Source: Catellatospora bangladeshensis
GTDB taxonomy: Bacteria; Actinomycetota; Actinomycetes; Mycobacteriales; Micromonosporaceae
Direction: 5' to 3'
NCBI RefSeq assembly: GCF_016862575.1
Contig: NZ_BONF01000005.1
Location: forward strand, 62,001 to 126,000
DNA: 64,000 nt
How positions within the stretch are numbered: the first letter of the stretch is position 1; each line of letters opens with the position of its first letter. The notes beneath the pieces are model-generated. The model was not told where the DNA came from, made no database searches, and was given only the letters and a program-made list of their open reading frames with translations. This document shows, in pieces, positions 3,328 to 40,142 of the stretch. The position numbers and the translations under genes are program-made.

Positions 3328-4965
3328 TCACTTGACCGTGACGGAAACCAGGTCGAGCTCGCCGAAGGTGTTGATCACCACGTTGTCCAGCTTCTCGGAC
3401 CAGACCGTCTGCTGCGACGAGTGCCACAGCGGGATGGTCGGCATGAGGTTCGGCAGCATGGCCTCGGCCTCCTGGTAGAGCTTCTCCGCAGCCGCGAGGT
3501 CGGCGGTGCCGTCGGCCTCCTTCAGCTTGTCGTCGAAGGCCTTGTCCGAGAACTTGCCGTCGTTGGACGACGCGTCGGTGCGCAGCAGCGGGTTCAGCCA
3601 GTTCTCGATGCTCGGGTAGTCGGCCTGCCAGCCGGCACGCGACATACCGGTCATCTTCTCGCCCACGACCAGGGTGCGGAACTCACCGAAGGTCGGGAAC
3701 GGCTTGCCCTTGCACTCGGTGCCCAGCGCCTGCGAGATGCTGCCGCAGACCGCGTCCACCCAGTCCTTGTGCGAGGCGTCACCGTTGTAGGCCAGCGACA
3801 GCTCCTTCGGCTTCACCGGCGCGGCGTCCCAGAGGGCCTTCGCGGCGGCGGCGTCGAACTTGCAGGCCGCGCCACACACGTCGGCCTTGTAGCCGGACAT
3901 GTTCGGGTTGACCCAGCCGTTCATCGGGATGCGGGTGCCGTTGAAGATCTTGTCGATCACCAGCTGGCGGTCGATCGCCATCGAGATGGCCTTGCGGATG
4001 TTCGGGTCGTTGTAGCCCGGCAGCCAGGTCGGCATCGCGATGAACGCGGAGACCGAGATCGGCTTGTTGCTGGCACGGTCGCCGAAGTCCGACTTGTACT
4101 GGTTGCCCACCAGCTTGGCCGACGGGACCTGCTGCTGGAAGTCGATGGTGCCGTTCTTGACGTCCTCGTACGCAGCGGCGTCGTCGGTGTAGACGCGGAA
4201 GATGACGTCCTTGACCTTCGCCTTGTCAGCGCCCTGGTAGTCGTCGTAGCGGGTCACGACCAGCTCGGTGTTCTTGGTCCACTTGGACAGCTTGAACGGG
4301 CCGTTGCCGATCGGGGCCTGGCCGAACTTCGCCGGGTCGGCGAAGAACGCGTCCGGCAGCGGCATGAACGCCGCGTAGCCGACCTTGATCGGCCACAGGT
4401 TGGACGGGCCGGCGAGGGTCACCTCGAAGGTGGTGTCGTCGACGACCTTCAGGCCGGAGAGCTTGTCGGTGGCCGGCTTCGGAGCCGTCTTCGGGCCCTC
4501 CTCGCCGTCCGGGTCCTCGGTGTGCACCTGGTCGAAGCCCGCGATGTCGGCGAAGAAGCTGCCGTTGATCAGACCGTTGGGCGAGTACGCCGCGTAGTTC
4601 CACGCGTCGACGTAGTTCTTCGCCACGACCGGCGTGCCGTCGTGCCACTTCCAGCCCGACTTGAGCTTGACCGTCCAGGTCTTGCCGTTGTCGGCCGAGG
4701 TGATCGACTCCGCGTTCGCCATCTCGGTCTTGGCGTCCTTGGGGGCGTACTGGGTCAGACCGGTGAACAGCGCGTCGATGACGACACCGCCCTGGGTCTC
4801 CGAGGTGCCCGCCGGGATCAGCGGGTTCTGCGGCTCGCCCCAGCTGATGATGAAGGAGCCGTCCTTCTTCTCGGGCTCAACCGGGTCGGCGCTGGAACAG
4901 CCAGCGGCCGCCAGGGCGACAGCCGTCAGACCGACTGCCACCTTCCATGGGGTAATCCCACGCAT
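3328..4965 (-). CDS. Peptide-binding lipoprotein (SBP family 5, DppA/OppA type)
   Basis: A 545-residue extracytoplasmic binding protein. The N-terminus is a lipoprotein signal peptide with lipobox LAAAGC, Cys about residue 23. The mature part has the family-5 pattern: FIISWGEPQNPLIP, GKTWTVKLKSGWKWHDGTPV, and a late segment where RKAISMAIDRQLVIDKIF marks the second lobe. It captures peptides outside the membrane and hands them to the permeases encoded downstream. The start at 4965 has GAGGAGG eight bases upstream. The 250 bases upstream (4966-5215) hold the operon promoter, but I could not fix its -10/-35. First gene of the importer operon. Confidence 0.95.
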   Translation of the reverse strand: MRGITPWKVAVGLTAVALAAAGCSSADPVEPEKKDGSFIISWGEPQNPLIPAGTSETQGGVVIDALFTGLTQYAPKDAKTEMANAESITSADNGKTWTVKLKSGWKWHDGTPVVAKNYVDAWNYAAYSPNGLINGSFFADIAGFDQVHTEDPDGEEGPKTAPKPATDKLSGLKVVDDTTFEVTLAGPSNLWPIKVGYAAFMPLPDAFFADPAKFGQAPIGNGPFKLSKWTKNTELVVTRYDDYQGADKAKVKDVIFRVYTDDAAAYEDVKNGTIDFQQQVPSAKLVGNQYKSDFGDRASNKPISVSAFIAMPTWLPGYNDPNIRKAISMAIDRQLVIDKIFNGTRIPMNGWVNPNMSGYKADVCGAACKFDAAAAKALWDAAPVKPKELSLAYNGDASHKDWVDAVCGSISQALGTECKGKPFPTFGEFRTLVVGEKMTGMSRAGWQADYPSIENWLNPLLRTDASSNDGKFSDKAFDDKLKEADGTADLAAAEKLYQEAEAMLPNLMPTIPLWHSSQQTVWSEKLDNVVINTFGELDLVSVTVK

Positions 4966-5215
4966 GCGTGTGCCTCCTCAGGCGCTCACGAGGGGGTGTG
5001 AGGTGGCCACACTTTCGCACCCCGCGACCACGCGCCGGAAGGGCCTGATACCAACCCGTTACCGAGCCGGGACGACGCCGATATCCCACAAAGAAATCTT
5101 TCACATCTCCGCGCGATCTCTTGACCAGCGGCTTTAGGGGCCACTCAGCCCGAAGTTGATCTAGGAGCGAAACACGACGGTAACTGGCATCCCAATCTAT
5201 GGGCGATACCGAGAG

Positions 5216-5881
5216 TCACACCAGGCGTCGATCCGCCGCCCACCGCGACAGCTCGTAGCGGTTGGACATCTGGAGCTTGCGGAGCACGTTCGAGACGTGG
5301 GTCTCCACCGTCTTGATGGAGATGAACAGCTCCTTGGCGATCTCCTTGTACGCGTACCCCCGCGCCAGCAGCCGCAGCACCTCCCGCTCCCGGTTGGTCA
5401 GCTGGTCCAGCTCCGGATCGGCGACCGGCGCGTCCGGCCGGGCCGCGAACGCGTCCAGCACGAACCCGGCCAGCCGTGGGGAGAACACCGCGTCCCCGTC
5501 GGCCACCCGGCGGATCGCGTCCACCAGGTCCTCCGGCGAGATGGTCTTGGTCACGTAACCGCGCGCACCGGCCCGGATCAACCCGATCACGTCCTCGGCG
5601 GCGTCGGACACCGACAGCGCCAGGAACTTCACCTGCGGCTGCGCCCGGCGCACCGCGTCCAGCACGGCCCGGCCGCCGCCGTCGGGCATGTGCACGTCCA
5701 GCAGCACCACGTCCGGCACGACCGAGCCGATCATGGAGATGGCCTGCGCCACGGTGGCCGCCTCGCCCACCACGTCGACGTGCGCGCCCAGCTCCGCGCG
5801 CACCCCCGCCCGGAACATCCCGTGGTCGTCGACCAGGAACACCCGCAGCCGCGGGCCGCCGCCACCGGCGCTCTCGCTCAT
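5216..5881 (-). CDS. NarL/LuxR-type response regulator
   Basis: A 221-residue two-component regulator starting at ATG 5881 (MSESAGGGGPRLRVFLVDD). The receiver domain is complete: acidic pair VDDH near the N-terminus, phosphoacceptor Asp in LLDVHMPDGG, and conserved Lys in YVTKTI. A LuxR-type helix-turn-helix (LTNREREVLRLLARGYAYKEIAKELF is split here as LTNREREVLRLL and YKEIAKELF) fills the C-terminus. The start overlaps the end of the histidine kinase gene by 4 bases (ATGA), so the two are co-translated and form a cognate pair. The kinase has a PspC-like sensor and a PspC/toastrack gene is divergent, so its targets probably concern envelope stress; that is inference. Confidence 0.95.
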   Translation of the reverse strand: MSESAGGGGPRLRVFLVDDHGMFRAGVRAELGAHVDVVGEAATVAQAISMIGSVVPDVVLLDVHMPDGGGRAVLDAVRRAQPQVKFLALSVSDAAEDVIGLIRAGARGYVTKTISPEDLVDAIRRVADGDAVFSPRLAGFVLDAFAARPDAPVADPELDQLTNREREVLRLLARGYAYKEIAKELFISIKTVETHVSNVLRKLQMSNRYELSRWAADRRLV

Positions 5882-7191
5882 GCCTTCTCCTCCTTCGGCT
5901 CCCTCGGCGAGGTCACCGCCATGGTCAGCCTGACCTCGGTGCCCTCGCCGATCTCGCTGCGTATCTCCGCCTGCCCGCCGTGCCGCGCCATGCGCCCGAT
6001 GATCGAACCACGGACGCCGTGCCGCCGCTCCTCCACCGACGCCGGGTCGAAGCCCTTGCCTCGGTCGCGGACGAACACGCTCAGCATCGTCGGCTCGGCC
6101 TCGGCGTACAACGACACGCTCTTGACCTGGGCGTGGCGGGCCGCGTTGACCAGCGCCTCGCGGGCCGCGGCCACGATCGCGGCCACCTTGTCGTCCACGG
6201 TGCGGTCGCCGACCACCACCGCCTCCACGGCGATGCCGTACGTGTCCTCGACCTCGGCGGCGGCCTGCTGCAGGGCCGCCGCGAAGTGCTCGGTCGGCGA
6301 GCCGGTCGGCTGGTAGAGCCAGTTGCGCAGGCTGCGCTCCTGGCCGCGGGCGATGCGCTGGACCGCGGCCGGGTCGCCCGCGTTGCGCTGGATCAGCGCC
6401 AGCGTGTGCAGCACCTGGTCGTGCACCATCGCGGCCAGCTCGGCCCGCTCCTGCTCCCGGATCCGGCCCTCCCGCTCGGTGCGCAGCGCGACCAGCGTGC
6501 GCCACAGCACCGGCGCGGCGACCAGCCCCACCCCGGCGAGCGCCACCAGCGCGAACGCGACCGCACGCCACATGTCGGCCCAGGAGACGCCCTCCACCAC
6601 CGGGGAGTAGAGGAACACCAGCCCGAGGATGCCCACCGCCACCAGCACCCCGCCGGCCAGGAAGCGCAGCAGGTAGATCCGCCGGTCGCCGTCGGACAGC
6701 GCGGCCAGCCACGGCGCCGACGGCGACTGGTCCGACCAGCGCTGGCGCCGGTCCGGGTCGCTCTGGTGCCAGATGATGCCCGCGCCGACCGCGACCAGCG
6801 CCACCAGCCAGCCCACGGTCATGCCGATGCCGCCGTTGTTGAGCAGCGTGCTGATGACCATCAGGACCAGCCCGGCGGCCAGGAACGGGGCCAGCCGCAG
6901 CAGCGAGCGGCGCGACGGCTCGCCCGGCGCGGCCGGCAGCACCGCCCAGAACGCGGCGTAGAGCAGCGCGCCCAGGCCGTTGATGGGCAGCAGCAGGACG
7001 AAGATGATCCGGATCAGCGTGGGCGACAGGCGGGTGTTCGCCGCGATGCCCCCGGCCACCCCGGCGACCAGGCGGTCGGTCCGGGAACGGGTCAGACGGG
7101 GGTGTCCGGGCGCGGAGGGCTGCACGGGATCGATGGTTTCACGGGTGCGGCCCTGCCGCCCACGGGTGAGACCCCGGATACAGGGCGGCAC
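5878..7191 (-). CDS. PspC-domain sensor histidine kinase
   Basis: About 437 residues. The N-terminus carries a PspC domain (RLVAGVAGGIAANTRLSPT then a membrane helix), followed by further membrane helices to about residue 220. Next is a HisKA_3 domain with the phosphorylatable His in MVHDQVLHTLALIQ, then an HATPase domain with N-box ALVNAARHA and G1 box DRGKGFD. It should sense envelope stress and phosphorylate the co-translated LuxR-type regulator. The start is uncertain: GTG at 7191 gives the full frame, and GTG at 7125 is an alternative just before the PspC domain. It is divergent from a PspC/toastrack gene with about 70 bases between starts. PspC-kinase fusions of this kind are known in actinobacteria. 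Confidence 0.92.
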   Translation of the reverse strand: MPPCIRGLTRGRQGRTRETIDPVQPSAPGHPRLTRSRTDRLVAGVAGGIAANTRLSPTLIRIIFVLLLPINGLGALLYAAFWAVLPAAPGEPSRRSLLRLAPFLAAGLVLMVISTLLNNGGIGMTVGWLVALVAVGAGIIWHQSDPDRRQRWSDQSPSAPWLAALSDGDRRIYLLRFLAGGVLVAVGILGLVFLYSPVVEGVSWADMWRAVAFALVALAGVGLVAAPVLWRTLVALRTEREGRIREQERAELAAMVHDQVLHTLALIQRNAGDPAAVQRIARGQERSLRNWLYQPTGSPTEHFAAALQQAAAEVEDTYGIAVEAVVVGDRTVDDKVAAIVAAAREALVNAARHAQVKSVSLYAEAEPTMLSVFVRDRGKGFDPASVEERRHGVRGSIIGRMARHGGQAEIRSEIGEGTEVRLTMAVTSPREPKEEKA

Positions 7192-35728: not shown

Positions 35729-36742
35729 ATGGTTGTGAGGGTGACCGAATCGTCCCGGCACGCCGCTTCCCTGCCCCGCCAGCCGGAATCGCACGTTCCC
35801 GTGCTGACGCCGTCGCGGCTGGCCGGGCTCGCCGACGTGCCGCACGCGCTGCCGTATCAGGGCAGCAAGCGCCGACTCGCGCACGCGATCGTGCCGCTGC
35901 TGCCCGCCGACACCGACCGGCTGCTGGAGCCGTTCGCCGGGTCGGCGGCGGTGACGATCGCCGCCCGCCATCTGCGCATCGGGCGCACCGCCGAGATCAG
36001 CGACCTCAACGTGCCGCTGATGCGGCTGTGGCAGCGGGTGCTGACCGAGCCGGGCGCGCTCGCCGACGACTACGCGCAGCTCTGGCACGCGCAGCAGGCC
36101 GACCCGCGGGCGTACTACGACGCGGTGCGCGACCGGTTCAACACCACCGGCGAGCCGCACTGCCTGCTCTACCTGCTGGCCCGCTGTGTGAAGGCCGCGG
36201 TGCGCTACAACCGCGAGGGCGGCTTCAACCAGGGCCCGGACAAGCGCCGCCTGGGCGCGCGCCCGGAGGTCATGCGCGTGCGGCTCACCGAGACCGCGCG
36301 GGTGCTGGCCGGGTGCCGCGCCTACGCCGCCGACTACGCCGACGTTCTGGTCCAGGCCGACCCCGCCGACGTCGTCTACCTGGACCCGCCCTACCAGGGC
36401 GTGAGCCGGGCCCGCGACCACCGTTACATGGCCGGGCTGCCGCGCGAGGCGTTCGTGGCGCGGCTGCGCGAGGCGGTCGCGGCGGGCACGTCGTTCGTGC
36501 TGTCCTACGACGGCCTGTCCCGCGAGCGCACCGGCGACCGTGCGTACGGCGAGCCGCTGCCCGGCGACCTCGGCCTGCTCCACCTGCACGTGGACGCGGG
36601 CACGTCCACGCAGGCCACCCTGCACGGCCGCCGCGCCCGCACGCTCGAATCCCTGTACCTCTCCCCCGCCCTGGTGGCCCGCCTCGGCGGCCCCGCCGCC
36701 GTCACCGGTCAGCTCTGCCAGGAGCGCCAGAGCGCGGCGTAG
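35729..36742 (+). CDS. DNA adenine methylase, D12 class
   Basis: A 337-residue N6-adenine methyltransferase of the Dam/D12 group. The order is alpha-type: the N-terminal motif PYQGSKRRLAHAI, SAM motif I LLEPFAGSAAVTIA, and the catalytic DPPY in VVYLDPPYQG. No restriction enzyme or specificity subunit is next to it, so it looks like an orphan methylase. D12 enzymes often recognise GATC, but the target cannot be read from sequence. Three of the palindromic intergenic families here have GATC near their ends. Its 3' end overlaps the convergent ABC exporter gene by 34 bases. Confidence 0.88.
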   Translation: MVVRVTESSRHAASLPRQPESHVPVLTPSRLAGLADVPHALPYQGSKRRLAHAIVPLLPADTDRLLEPFAGSAAVTIAARHLRIGRTAEISDLNVPLMRLWQRVLTEPGALADDYAQLWHAQQADPRAYYDAVRDRFNTTGEPHCLLYLLARCVKAAVRYNREGGFNQGPDKRRLGARPEVMRVRLTETARVLAGCRAYAADYADVLVQADPADVVYLDPPYQGVSRARDHRYMAGLPREAFVARLREAVAAGTSFVLSYDGLSRERTGDRAYGEPLPGDLGLLHLHVDAGTSTQATLHGRRARTLESLYLSPALVARLGGPAAVTGQLCQERQSAA

Positions 36743-38445
36743 GAGCCGTCGGCGGCGACGAGGTCGTCGTGGGGGCCGAGTTCGATGATGCGGCCGTCCT
36801 CGACGACGGCGACGCGATCGGCGTCGTGGGCCGAGAAGAGGCGGTGCGCGATCGCGACGACGGTGCGCCCGTCCAGCACGGCGGCCAGGGAGCGTTCCAG
36901 GTGGCGGGCGGCGCGCGGGTCGATCAGCGAGGTGGCCTCGTCGAGCACCAGTGTGTGCGGGTCGGCCAGCACCAGCCGGGCCAGCGCGAGCTGCTGCGCC
37001 TGGGCGGGCGAGACCTCGTGCTTCCCGCTGCCTACCTCGGTGGCCAGGCCCGCGGGCAGGTCGTCGACCCAGTCCAGGGCGTCGACGGCGGCCAGCGCCC
37101 GGCGGATCTCGGCGTCGTCGGCGGACGGCTTGGCCAGGGCCAGGTTGTCCCGCAGCGTGCCCAGGAAGACGTGGTGCTCCTGGGTGACCAGCGCGACGTG
37201 GCCGCGCAGCTCCTCCAGCGGCAGCTCGACCAGGGGCGCGCCGCCGACCGCGACGGTGCCGGTGCGCGGCCCGTCGATGCCCGCGAGCAGCCGCCCCAGC
37301 GTCGACTTGCCCGCGCCGGACGGGCCGACCATGGCCAGCCGCTCGCCGGGGGCGATGGTCAGGTCGACGCCGTGCAGCACGTCGCGGCCCTGGGTGTACG
37401 CGTACCGCACGTCGCTCGCGGTGAGCCGCTCGGAGTCCGGCCGCGCGTCGCCGGGCGTGCGGTCGTCGCCGACCTCGGCCACGCCCAGCAGCCGGGCCAG
37501 CGACGTCGCGCCGACCTGCAGCTCGTCGGCCCAGCCGAGCAGCCGGTCGATCGGCTCGACGAGCTGCTGCACGTAGAACACCGCCGTGACGACCTGCGCC
37601 AGCTCGGCCCAGCCCTGGATGTAGAACCAGCCGCCGAGGAACAGCGTGGCCACCACCGGCAGCACGAAGCCGACCTCGACCACCGGCCAGAACACGGTGC
37701 GCAGCCCGAGCGTGCCCCGCTCGGCCAGGTACTGCTCGTGCAGGTCGTGGTCGGTGCGGGCGATGCGGCGGGCGCCGGTGCGCAGCGCCTCGGTGGTGCG
37801 CGCGCCGTCGAAGGTCTCGGTGAGCCCGTCGATGACCTCGGAGGAGGCGGCGTTCTCGCGCAGGTACGCCTTGGGGGCGCGGCGCAGGTACCACCGCGCG
37901 CCGCCGATGATGATCGGCGCGCCGACCAGGCAGGGCAGGGCCAGCAGCGGGGACAGCCAGATCAGCGCGCCCGCGGTCAGGATCAGGGTGACCGCGGCGA
38001 TCAGGCTCTCCGGCACGCCGCGGCGCACGCTGTGGGACAGCTGCGCGACATCCCGGCTGGTACGCGTGACCAGGTCCCCCGTGCCCGCCCGTTCCACCGT
38101 GGACAGCGGAATGGCCAGCACCCGGTCCACGAACTCCTCGCGCAGCTCGGCCAGCACCCGCTCGCCCAGGTTCGCCGAGGAGAACGCGGCGAACCGGGTG
38201 AGCACTGCCTGCACCAGCACGAAGACCACCAGCGCGACGGCGATGCCGTCGACCGCCGACACGGTGGTGCCGTGCTCGATCGCGCCGATCAGCCGCCCCA
38301 GCAGGAACGGGGTGACCAGGCCCGCGAGCGCGGCCAGGCCGTGCAGCGCGACCACCCGGAACAGCGGGCCGGTGTGCCGCCTGGTCAGCCGCCGGGCGTA
38401 GCGGCGTACCGCGGGCGCGTCGGCGACGGGCAACTGCACCCTCAT
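36709..38445 (-). CDS. ABC exporter subunit with intact Walker A but degenerate signature
   Basis: A 578-residue half-transporter: six membrane helices then an ATPase domain. The real start is ATG 38445 (MRVQLPVADAPAVRRYARR), overlapping the upstream subunit by ATGA; the very long open frame beyond it is shadow. The nucleotide domain has Walker A GPSGAGKST, Q-loop VTQEHHVF, Walker B LVLDEATS and H-loop IAHRL, all intact. The signature is VSPAQAQQLALAR instead of LSGGQ. It therefore supplies the catalytic nucleotide site, paired with the signature of the other subunit. The substrate is unknown; multidrug or lipid export is the family expectation. Confidence 0.92.
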   Translation of the reverse strand: MRVQLPVADAPAVRRYARRLTRRHTGPLFRVVALHGLAALAGLVTPFLLGRLIGAIEHGTTVSAVDGIAVALVVFVLVQAVLTRFAAFSSANLGERVLAELREEFVDRVLAIPLSTVERAGTGDLVTRTSRDVAQLSHSVRRGVPESLIAAVTLILTAGALIWLSPLLALPCLVGAPIIIGGARWYLRRAPKAYLRENAASSEVIDGLTETFDGARTTEALRTGARRIARTDHDLHEQYLAERGTLGLRTVFWPVVEVGFVLPVVATLFLGGWFYIQGWAELAQVVTAVFYVQQLVEPIDRLLGWADELQVGATSLARLLGVAEVGDDRTPGDARPDSERLTASDVRYAYTQGRDVLHGVDLTIAPGERLAMVGPSGAGKSTLGRLLAGIDGPRTGTVAVGGAPLVELPLEELRGHVALVTQEHHVFLGTLRDNLALAKPSADDAEIRRALAAVDALDWVDDLPAGLATEVGSGKHEVSPAQAQQLALARLVLADPHTLVLDEATSLIDPRAARHLERSLAAVLDGRTVVAIAHRLFSAHDADRVAVVEDGRIIELGPHDDLVAADGSYAALWRSWQS

Positions 38446-40142
38446 TCGACGCTCCTCGTGACCACGGCCCGGTAGCCGGGCTCGGCGGCCAGCAGCTCGC
38501 GGTGGGTGCCCTCGGCGGCGACCTTGCCGTCCTCCACGTACACCACGTGGTCGGCGCGGTCGAGCAGCAGCGGGCTGGTGGCCGCGACCAGGGTGGTCCG
38601 GCCCTGCCGCGCCTCGCCGAGCCGGCCGGCGATCCGGGCCTCGGTGTGCGCGTCCACGGCGCTGGTCGGCTCGACCAGGATCAGGATCGGCGGGTCCGCG
38701 ACCAGGGCGCGGGCCAGCCGCAGCCGCTGCTGCTGGCCGCCGGAGAACTCCCGCCCCCGCTCGGCGACGAACGCGTCCAGCCCGCCGGGCAGCGCGTCCA
38801 CGATCTCCTCGGCGGACGCGGCGTGCAGCGCCGCCGTGAGCCGCGCCTCGTCGCCGTGCCCGGCCGGGTCCAGCTCCTCGCGCAGCGGGCCGCTGAACAG
38901 CCGGGCGTTGTTGTCGGCGACCAGGATGCGGGCGCGCACCTCGTCGCGGGTGGCCTCGGCCAGCGGCACGCCGCCCAGGGTCACCTCGCCCTCGGCGTAG
39001 CGGCCGAGCCGGTCGGCGATCTCGATGGCGTCCTCGGGCCGGTCCGCGGCGAGCACGGTCAGCACGCCGGGGCGCAGCGTCAGGCCGGACTTCGCGTCGG
39101 CCAGCACGCCGTGCGCGGGCAGCTCCCGGGGCGCCGCCGGGCCGGTGATCTCCGGCTCCAGCCGCAGCACCTGCAGCACCCGGCCCGCCGACACGTGCCC
39201 GCGGGTCAGCTTCTCCAGCAGCTCGGCGAGCGTGCGCAACGGCATGATCAGGAACGCGGCGTATCCGTAGAAGCTGGCCAGCTCGCCGGGCTGGATCTCG
39301 CCGGTCACCGCCAGCCGCGCGCCGAGCCAGGTGACCAGCGCCAGGAACAGGCCCGGCATCAGCACCTGGATCGCCTCCAGCAGCGAGTCGATGCGCGCCG
39401 CCCGGATGCCCGCCGCGCGCAGCTCCTGCGACTGCTCCCGATACCGGTCGGCGAAGACCTGCTCGCCGCCGATGCCGCGCAGCACCCGCAGCCCGGCCAC
39501 GATGTCGACGGCCCGCCCGGTGAGGGTGCCCTGCTGGTCGCGGTACGCCTGCTGGCGGCGGTGCAGCGGCTTGATGAGCAGGCTGACCACCGCCATCTGC
39601 ACCGGCACGCCGAGCAGCACCACCAGGCCGAGCTTCACCGACGCGGTGAGCAGGATGACGGTGACGGTGATCAGGCTGACCACGGCGGCCGACCCGCGCG
39701 CGCTGATGTCGAGGGCGTTGCCGATGTGCGAGGTGTCGGCCGCGCCGATGGCGACCACCTCGCCCGTGGCCAGCCGCTTCGGCAGCGTCGCGCCCAGCCG
39801 GTTGGCGTGCCGCACCACGGCCTGCACGGTGCGGAAGTTCGCCGACATCCAGTTGAAGACGGCGTTGCGGTGGCGCATGATGCCGCTGCCCGCCTGCACC
39901 AGCCCCAGCAACAGGAACGCCCCGGCCCACTGGGCCAGGGCGGTGGTGTCGCGGGTGGTGATGCCGGCGTCGATGGCCTTGCCGATCACCATCGGCATCA
40001 GCGCCGCGGTGAGCATCCAGGTGATGCCGAAGAACATGCCGAACCCGATGGTCCGGGACTGATGCGAGGCCAGCCACCACAGGTATCTGGCGGCTGACCT
40101 GGTGTCGGGCGTGCCGGGATCGGCGACAGGTAAGGATCGCAT
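38442..40142 (-). CDS. ABC exporter subunit lacking Walker A, Walker B Asp and H-loop
   Basis: A 566-residue half-transporter starting at ATG 40142 (MRSLPVADPGTPDTRSAARYL). The membrane domain is normal. In the ATPase domain the P-loop is gone: LRPGVLTVLAADRPEDAIEI stands where GPSGSGKST should be. Walker B reads LILVEPTSAVD (Asp to Val) and the H-loop reads VAATSPLLL. The signature EFSGGQQQRLRLARA is perfect. This half cannot bind ATP canonically and can only complete the site of its partner. The reading frame is otherwise clean, so this is evolved degeneration, not a pseudogene. Confidence 0.9.
   Translation of the reverse strand: MRSLPVADPGTPDTRSAARYLWWLASHQSRTIGFGMFFGITWMLTAALMPMVIGKAIDAGITTRDTTALAQWAGAFLLLGLVQAGSGIMRHRNAVFNWMSANFRTVQAVVRHANRLGATLPKRLATGEVVAIGAADTSHIGNALDISARGSAAVVSLITVTVILLTASVKLGLVVLLGVPVQMAVVSLLIKPLHRRQQAYRDQQGTLTGRAVDIVAGLRVLRGIGGEQVFADRYREQSQELRAAGIRAARIDSLLEAIQVLMPGLFLALVTWLGARLAVTGEIQPGELASFYGYAAFLIMPLRTLAELLEKLTRGHVSAGRVLQVLRLEPEITGPAAPRELPAHGVLADAKSGLTLRPGVLTVLAADRPEDAIEIADRLGRYAEGEVTLGGVPLAEATRDEVRARILVADNNARLFSGPLREELDPAGHGDEARLTAALHAASAEEIVDALPGGLDAFVAERGREFSGGQQQRLRLARALVADPPILILVEPTSAVDAHTEARIAGRLGEARQGRTTLVAATSPLLLDRADHVVYVEDGKVAAEGTHRELLAAEPGYRAVVTRSVE

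Follow-up and report, generated by a model that had tools for sequence, protein, structure and literature searches.

A predicted one-site heterodimeric ABC exporter of actinobacteria in which one half has a dismantled ATP pocket

Introduction

In the heterodimeric ABC exporters TM287/288, TmrAB and BmrCD, both halves carry a Walker A motif and ATP is bound at both sites. These pairs and MsRv1273c/72c share their fold and two-gene make-up with the gene pair described here, which we call A/B. Unlike these type IV heterodimers, however, A/B has one half (A) from which both the A-loop and the P-loop are gone. The account of MsRv1273c/72c, in the passages cited, has ATP in each of the two sites, held in the degenerate one through the Walker A groove (PMC12038006). 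The role of the degenerate site is described as an open question, and a common proposal is that ATP stays there as glue over several cycles (PMC12038006, PMC7756269).

The loss pattern of A/B is complementary, as is that of Pdr5 of the fungal/plant PDR subfamily. The parts of the sources cited describe one NBD of Pdr5 with the Walker A Lys changed to Cys, a changed Walker B, a Tyr at the H-loop and the signature kept, and another NBD that has lost its signature (LNVEQ) (PMC7756269, PMC8421411). A review of degenerate sites gives Pdr5 as one of the most deviant (PMC7756269), and the PDR subfamily has been termed the most extreme case, with ATP bound at the deviant site in cryo-EM maps (PMC8421411). 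Nevertheless, Pdr5 is a eukaryotic single chain with its NBDs ahead of its TMDs, and its Walker A is substituted, not removed. A and B are encoded by two genes, each with an MsbA-type TMD ahead of the NBD, and on these features lie outside the PDR/Pdr5 group. Human ABCG5/G8 resembles A in that the Walker A Lys of its degenerate site is altered, but only to Arg, and the protein is a type II exporter (PMC7756269). Among human proteins, signature loss and E to D are described in the same review as the commonest degenerate-site changes (PMC7756269).

An earlier note on this DNA had called the pair an extreme case. The published extreme, Pdr5, is described as still binding ATP at its deviant site (PMC8421411), and A/B go further than both Pdr5 and MsRv1273c/72c, in that the ATP-holding loops are gone. 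A likeness to OmrDE of Ornithinimicrobium was considered and rejected; its NBD motifs are conserved according to the passage cited (PMC11109279). Among the matches listed in a search of the open-access literature, there was no account of the A/B family or of a P-loop-less ABC exporter half; subscription papers and preprints lay outside that search, so the family can be called undescribed only provisionally.

Materials and methods

One hundred A loci were fetched from Micromonosporaceae genomes; a search of genomes of that family with A of the window gave a match at 1e-90 in 104 of 121, paralogous copies included. Further loci were taken from the best 80 loci of a GTDB-220 contig scan and from a phylum search, and a profile cut-off of 300 bits yielded 67 more A proteins (100 + 67 = 167 rows). 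In the loci handled with this cut-off, unbroken A-type proteins scored at least 350 bits and other half exporters below 250. A third batch of 35 A proteins was counted apart from the 167 rows. With the duplicates L112 = L236 and L132 = L222, the 167 A rows represent 165 genes and the 163 B rows 161 genes. Left out of the counts were the A half of L173 (broken and below the cut-off), three B halves (L142 and L170, at contig ends, and L230, broken), and the gap cells of each column. Since 27 of the 163 B rows are shorter than 500 residues, most of them cut at the locus end, n is smaller for the late motifs.

Results and discussion

The window (the whole 64,000-nucleotide stretch of DNA analysed) contains two half ABC exporters at 36709-40142 on the minus strand, exactly where the earlier note had put them. 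A (566 aa) precedes B (578 aa); both begin with ATG, and the stop of A overlaps the start of B by 4 bases.

38442..40142, minus strand: A half-exporter, 566 aa; six-TM-type domain and pseudo-NBD, with only the signature, X-loop and D-loop side kept
36709..38445, minus strand: B half-exporter, 578 aa; six-TM-type domain and NBD, with the ATP-binding side complete and the signature gone

Both proteins scored above the Pfam cut-off, with an exporter TM domain fused to an ABC NBD, as expected of a type IV, MsbA-like exporter. In A, ABC_membrane covers residues 34-302, and ABC_tran was matched only from profile position 37 onward. When compared with the named ABC families of NCBIfam, none of the best 25 of 161 models for A, or of the best 25 of 179 for B, reached its cut-off, the best scores being 210.7 against a cut-off of 780.4 for A and 267.5 against 602 for B. 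The best 25 NCBIfam models for each protein offer no curated name for this recurrent family. As judged by its motifs, the pair would belong with the two-gene degenerate-site heterodimers, its adjacent halves being different and one composite site being complete with the other defective.

The A half has lost the residues of an ATP pocket but not those that would reach across to a partner's ATP site. In the window A lacks the P-loop, the A-loop, the Q-loop Gln, the Walker-B Asp and the H-loop His, and retains SGGQ and the D-loop.

39021..39053, minus strand: A residues 364-374, where the Walker A P-loop would lie; modelled as strand 361-366, a two-residue turn and helix 369-379
38721..38744, minus strand: A residues 467-474, intact signature SGGQQQRL; SGGQ in 166/166 readable rows
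38637..38684, minus strand: A residues 487-502, LILVEPTSAVDAHTEA; has Glu and the D-loop Asp497 but no Walker-B Asp
38571..38576, minus strand: A residues 523-524, where Ser-Pro has replaced the H-loop His; Ser in 166/166 readable rows, Pro likewise

Where Walker A would be, A reads TVLAADRPEDAIEIADRL, and VADNNARLF occupies the Q-loop place. The signature is FSGGQQQR. The Walker B stretch is ILILVEPTSAVD, in which Asp has become Val and the next residue, at the catalytic-Glu position, is Glu; ATSPLLL stands at the place of the H-loop His. The loss of Walker A, of the Walker-B Asp and of the H-loop His, with SGGQ kept, had already been noted and is read directly in the window sequence. To these can be added the missing A-loop strand, the missing Q-loop Gln and the Glu at the catalytic-Glu position.

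Most of these features recur throughout the family. The Walker A Lys is present in 0/167 A rows and in 0/35 of the further A proteins, and the second P-loop Gly position is Pro in 142 of the 167. The defective site does not keep its A-loop either, as the column of the A-loop Tyr is a gap in all 167 rows. In the NBD alignment the A-loop stretch of the window measures 17 residues in A versus 29 in both B and the classical half C4a; it spans 23 to 33 residues in six classical halves and mostly 15-21 across the A rows. In 17/167 rows, largely of the C10-like subgroup, the shortening is smaller and leaves 23-25 residues, at least as many as in the classical half C25a (23). SGGQ is also found in 35/35 of the further proteins, and the D-loop D497 in 166/166 readable rows. 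The H-loop His is found in 0/166 rows; the further proteins have Ser (34/35) or Ala (1/35) at that position. Loss of the Walker-B Asp, which holds for A of the window, does not extend to the whole family, as 19 of 166 readable rows have the Asp. Position 491, the catalytic one, is Glu or Asp in 165/166 rows. Simple decay does not account for the invariant Ser523-Pro524 or for the Glu/Asp at 491.

An AlphaFold monomer model of A (38 rows, mean pLDDT 87.9) is closest in fold to TM287 (3qf4_A) and to the A chains of the MsRv1273c/72c structures. At the Walker A place it has the two-residue turn given above, and in this model the phosphate loop is absent. We conclude that the pocket of A is dismantled, more than mutated, the A-loop strand being shortened and the phosphate loop replaced by a turn. 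A P-loop relocated elsewhere in A, which the earlier note had named as grounds for rejecting its reading, was searched for as G-x4-GK[ST] and matched in 1/167 rows only (L121, at residue 519, well removed from the Walker A place). This lone match was taken as chance, and the model has a turn at the loop's place. The same pattern was found in 85 of 87 other half exporters of the fetched loci, and the remaining two have an eroded P-loop. These two, from gut Clostridia (L172:3938-5722, plus strand; L211:3869-5665, plus strand), are each the degenerate half of an otherwise classical heterodimer with a milder, separate Walker A erosion (Lys to Gln; the last Gly ahead of it to Ala).

The B half is the mirror image: its own ATP-binding motifs are complete (GPSGAGKST, VTQEHH, LVLDEATS and IAHRL in the window), and VSPAQAQQ stands in the place of LSGGQxQR.

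37300..37326, minus strand: B residues 374-382, Walker A GPSGAGKST; Lys in 162/162 readable rows
36988..37014, minus strand: B residues 478-486, VSPAQAQQL replacing LSGGQxQR; Gly pair absent in 150/150 readable rows
36937..36942, minus strand: B residues 502-503, Walker-B Asp and catalytic Glu; Asp-Glu in 136/136 readable rows

That B retains the ATP motifs and has lost LSGGQ (VSPAQ) had been proposed for the window, and it is constant in the relatives: Lys380 is present in 162/162 rows, Q422 in 161/161, D502-E503 in 136/136, H534 in 135/135 and Tyr350 in 163/163. At the signature a single Gly of the pair is found in 9/150 rows and both in 0/150. The D-loop of B, which is part of the dead site, has lost its Asp in 10/135 rows, nine of them with Gly (the C10-like subgroup, L114 and eight rows). 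In an AlphaFold monomer model of B (37 rows, pLDDT 85.8), TM288 is among the best structural matches, and strand 369-373 is followed by a six-residue loop (374-379) and helix 380-387. The D-loop region, 506-512, is the only stretch of at least 3 residues with pLDDT below 50, and would face the dead site.

With A lacking a pocket and B lacking a signature, only the site made of the Walker A/B motifs of B and the signature of A can form; going by the motifs, an A-A or a B-B dimer would have no full site. The earlier proposal of complementary losses that leave one complete composite site holds both for the window and for the relatives that were fetched. Mean conservation of consensus-site versus pseudo-site positions was 0.87 versus 0.62 in A (p=0.004) and 0.98 versus 0.70 in B (p=2e-5), a contrast that depends on position sets which the author picked from general ABC knowledge. 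Orthologs of A with an intact P-loop, the other ground for rejection named in the earlier note, were sought, and the absence of the Walker A Lys from every one of the 167 rows and 35 further proteins shows that the loss of the pocket is not due to sequencing error or chance. No A-clade member with an intermediate pocket was seen among the rows examined. All eight rows of the third batch that were set aside as non-family carry a P-loop. One of them, the classical L296, scored 342 bits with the A profile, above the P-loop-less members L295 (335) and L298 (294), so score alone cannot separate the family at its edge.

Comparison with seven same-genus orthologs gave dN/dS values of 0.33-0.51 for the A NBD and 0.12-0.28 for the B NBD. 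By these ratios both NBDs are constrained, A less so, and the A NBD evolves faster than that of B. Over A residues 340-420, the former pocket, six of the comparisons gave 0.22-0.50. The closest one gave 1.67, a value of little weight at a dS of only 0.01, so that purifying selection is less certain here.

Three trees were built. Among the rows used, A forms one clade and B another, each with full support. A falls beside the degenerate halves of classical pairs with support of 86, 85/83 and only 72 in the three trees, and B beside the classical consensus halves with 97 and 88/85 in two. Support for separating all degenerate halves from the remaining sequences is weak (80/60 in the careful tree). 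A and B thus appear to share descent with classical heterodimers. The nearest relatives of A found are classical heterodimers of the same genome, at C25:500-6000 and C4:100000-106000 (L245, L247). Their A-like half resembles A in lacking the H-loop His, and has Asp at the position of the catalytic Glu; in C25 the A-loop is already shortened. Like B, the partner half has an altered signature, LSVGE. Unlike A/B, however, these pairs keep GxxGxGK in both halves. Among the consensus-half relatives of B the signature has likewise drifted already (for example LSVGE, ISAGQ, LSAGQ). From these sequences we infer an order of loss in which E to D and signature drift would have come first, then loss of the H-loop, then of the A-loop and then of the P-loop. 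On that order, the Glu in most A proteins would have been regained, not kept.

B adjoins A in 98 of the 100 Micromonosporaceae loci. The two exceptions (L101, L102) were considered as orphan A genes, and this was ruled out, as B lies ~4.5 kb further in the same locus; they are the only such cases among the 100. In the second batch, three A without a B row are explained by contig ends (L142, L170) or by breakage of both halves (L230/L342). Across 134 loci, A and B diverge in step (r=0.964, against at most 0.18 in 500 label permutations). The genome of the window has four such pairs, on C5 (the window), C19, C49 and C10. The A protein was found in Micromonospora, Nonomuraea, Herbidospora, Terrabacter, Humibacillus, Phycicoccus, Cellulomonas, Actinomyces, Streptomyces, Kribbella, Amycolatopsis, Prauserella, Glycomyces, Saccharothrix and Nocardiopsis, among others. 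In a class sample, 119/246 genomes matched at 1e-85, an upper figure since G486 matched through the classical L296 and most of the weaker matches were left unread; in a phylum sample 22/296 matched at 1e-110. In eight genomes of one same-order family, 24 of 34 matches (1e-45) were read and all were classical with P-loops; a ninth genome from the same family, G397, does carry a member (L235). No non-actinobacterial member was found among the best 80 loci of the GTDB-220 contig scan. Interrupted copies were seen for B in L062 (near 4762-6702) and for both halves in L173 and L342.

In our proposal, A and B are the obligate partners of a heterodimeric ABC exporter that has the MsbA/TM287-288 fold and a single nucleotide site. 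ATP would be held by B through the A-loop Tyr350, Walker A Lys380, Q422, D502/E503 and H534; the roles of these individual residues in contacting ATP are presumed on the basis of ABC proteins in general and not of a dimer model. The signature and D-loop of A would close over the ATP on B. On the opposite side, the dismantled pocket of A would meet the altered signature and D-loop of B with no nucleotide between them, possibly as a protein-protein hinge or latch, and one ATP would be bound and hydrolysed per closure-opening cycle. Heterodimer assembly, ATP stoichiometry, transport and the latch are all what we infer. As a whole, the reading of A/B as a heterodimeric exporter that uses one ATP per closure, with the opposite interface nucleotide-free, seems to us quite likely. 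The presence of the same dismantled pair in many actinobacteria makes it look like a long-established functional design rather than a damaged gene. We also lean, though only slightly, towards a broader proposal, that A/B represents a widespread ancient actinobacterial class of one-ATP exporters whose second pocket is now a nucleotide-free latch, with Ser-Pro at the old H-loop, and for which the ATP glue is dispensable. If true, a natural family with one ATP pocket removed would show that one ATP can suffice per exporter cycle, and would offer a clean system for counting ATP per cycle.

A different reading is that A/B is a classical degenerate-site exporter, whose second site binds ATP non-catalytically, as glue, through residues that are unrecognisable in the sequence. 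Solved degenerate exporters have ATP at the dead site, as described for MsRv1273c/72c and Pdr5 in the passages cited (PMC12038006, PMC8421411), and the nearest relatives of A are classical degenerate halves with an intact P-loop. ATP could still be weakly held between A and B without a P-loop; the sequence, however, suggests no means. We regard this reading as unlikely, given that A has neither the A-loop Tyr nor the Walker A Lys in any of the 167 rows and, L121 apart, no P-loop elsewhere, that the B signature has lost its Gly pair in 150/150 rows, and that the A model has a two-residue turn where the loop would lie.

The fold and both TM domains match bacterial exporters, and the recurrent neighbours that are annotated, a minority of those clustered, include no channel genes. 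These observations make it quite improbable that A/B is no pump but a regulated channel, sensor or scaffold whose conformational switch is gated by one ATP, in the manner of CFTR or SUR, even though degenerate-site ABC proteins are described as including a channel and sulphonylurea receptors (PMC7756269). That the pair is decaying, or a sequencing artefact, is hardly credible: broken copies do occur in a few loci (both halves of L173 and L342, B of L062), but nearly all fetched loci have long open frames, the signature is invariant and A/B occurs across many Actinomycetes families. Both an error in the sequence and a local decay were rejected as contradicted by this conservation across relatives.

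Under the preferred reading, of a one-ATP exporter, our guess at the cargo, from the fold and neighbours, is a metabolite, drug or lipid. Locus neighbour clustering and Pfam gave no guide to the substrate from the neighbouring genes. PADLOC returned only mad3 and mad8 matches, read as ABC-ATPase cross-matches, and the nine plasmid records held generic product names, none, or no annotation. Within the fetched flank, tsaD was present in 51/77 window-type loci of Micromonosporaceae versus 0/23 paralogous loci. Five Streptomyces-type loci (L147, L150, L153, L155, L170) have in common a MarR-type regulator, identified by Pfam in L147, where it lies upstream of A; in L147, L150, L155 and L170 there is also another ABC half exporter on the opposite strand. 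Five C10-like loci (L162, L163, L168, L169, L171) share a gene that is Peripla_BP_2 by Pfam in L162, where it lies downstream of B, hinting at a link with siderophore handling. In the window itself, a D12-class DNA adenine methyltransferase is encoded at 35729-36742 on the plus strand, convergent with B; the neighbour clustering placed it in just six loci (L035-L040), each from the same genus as the window.
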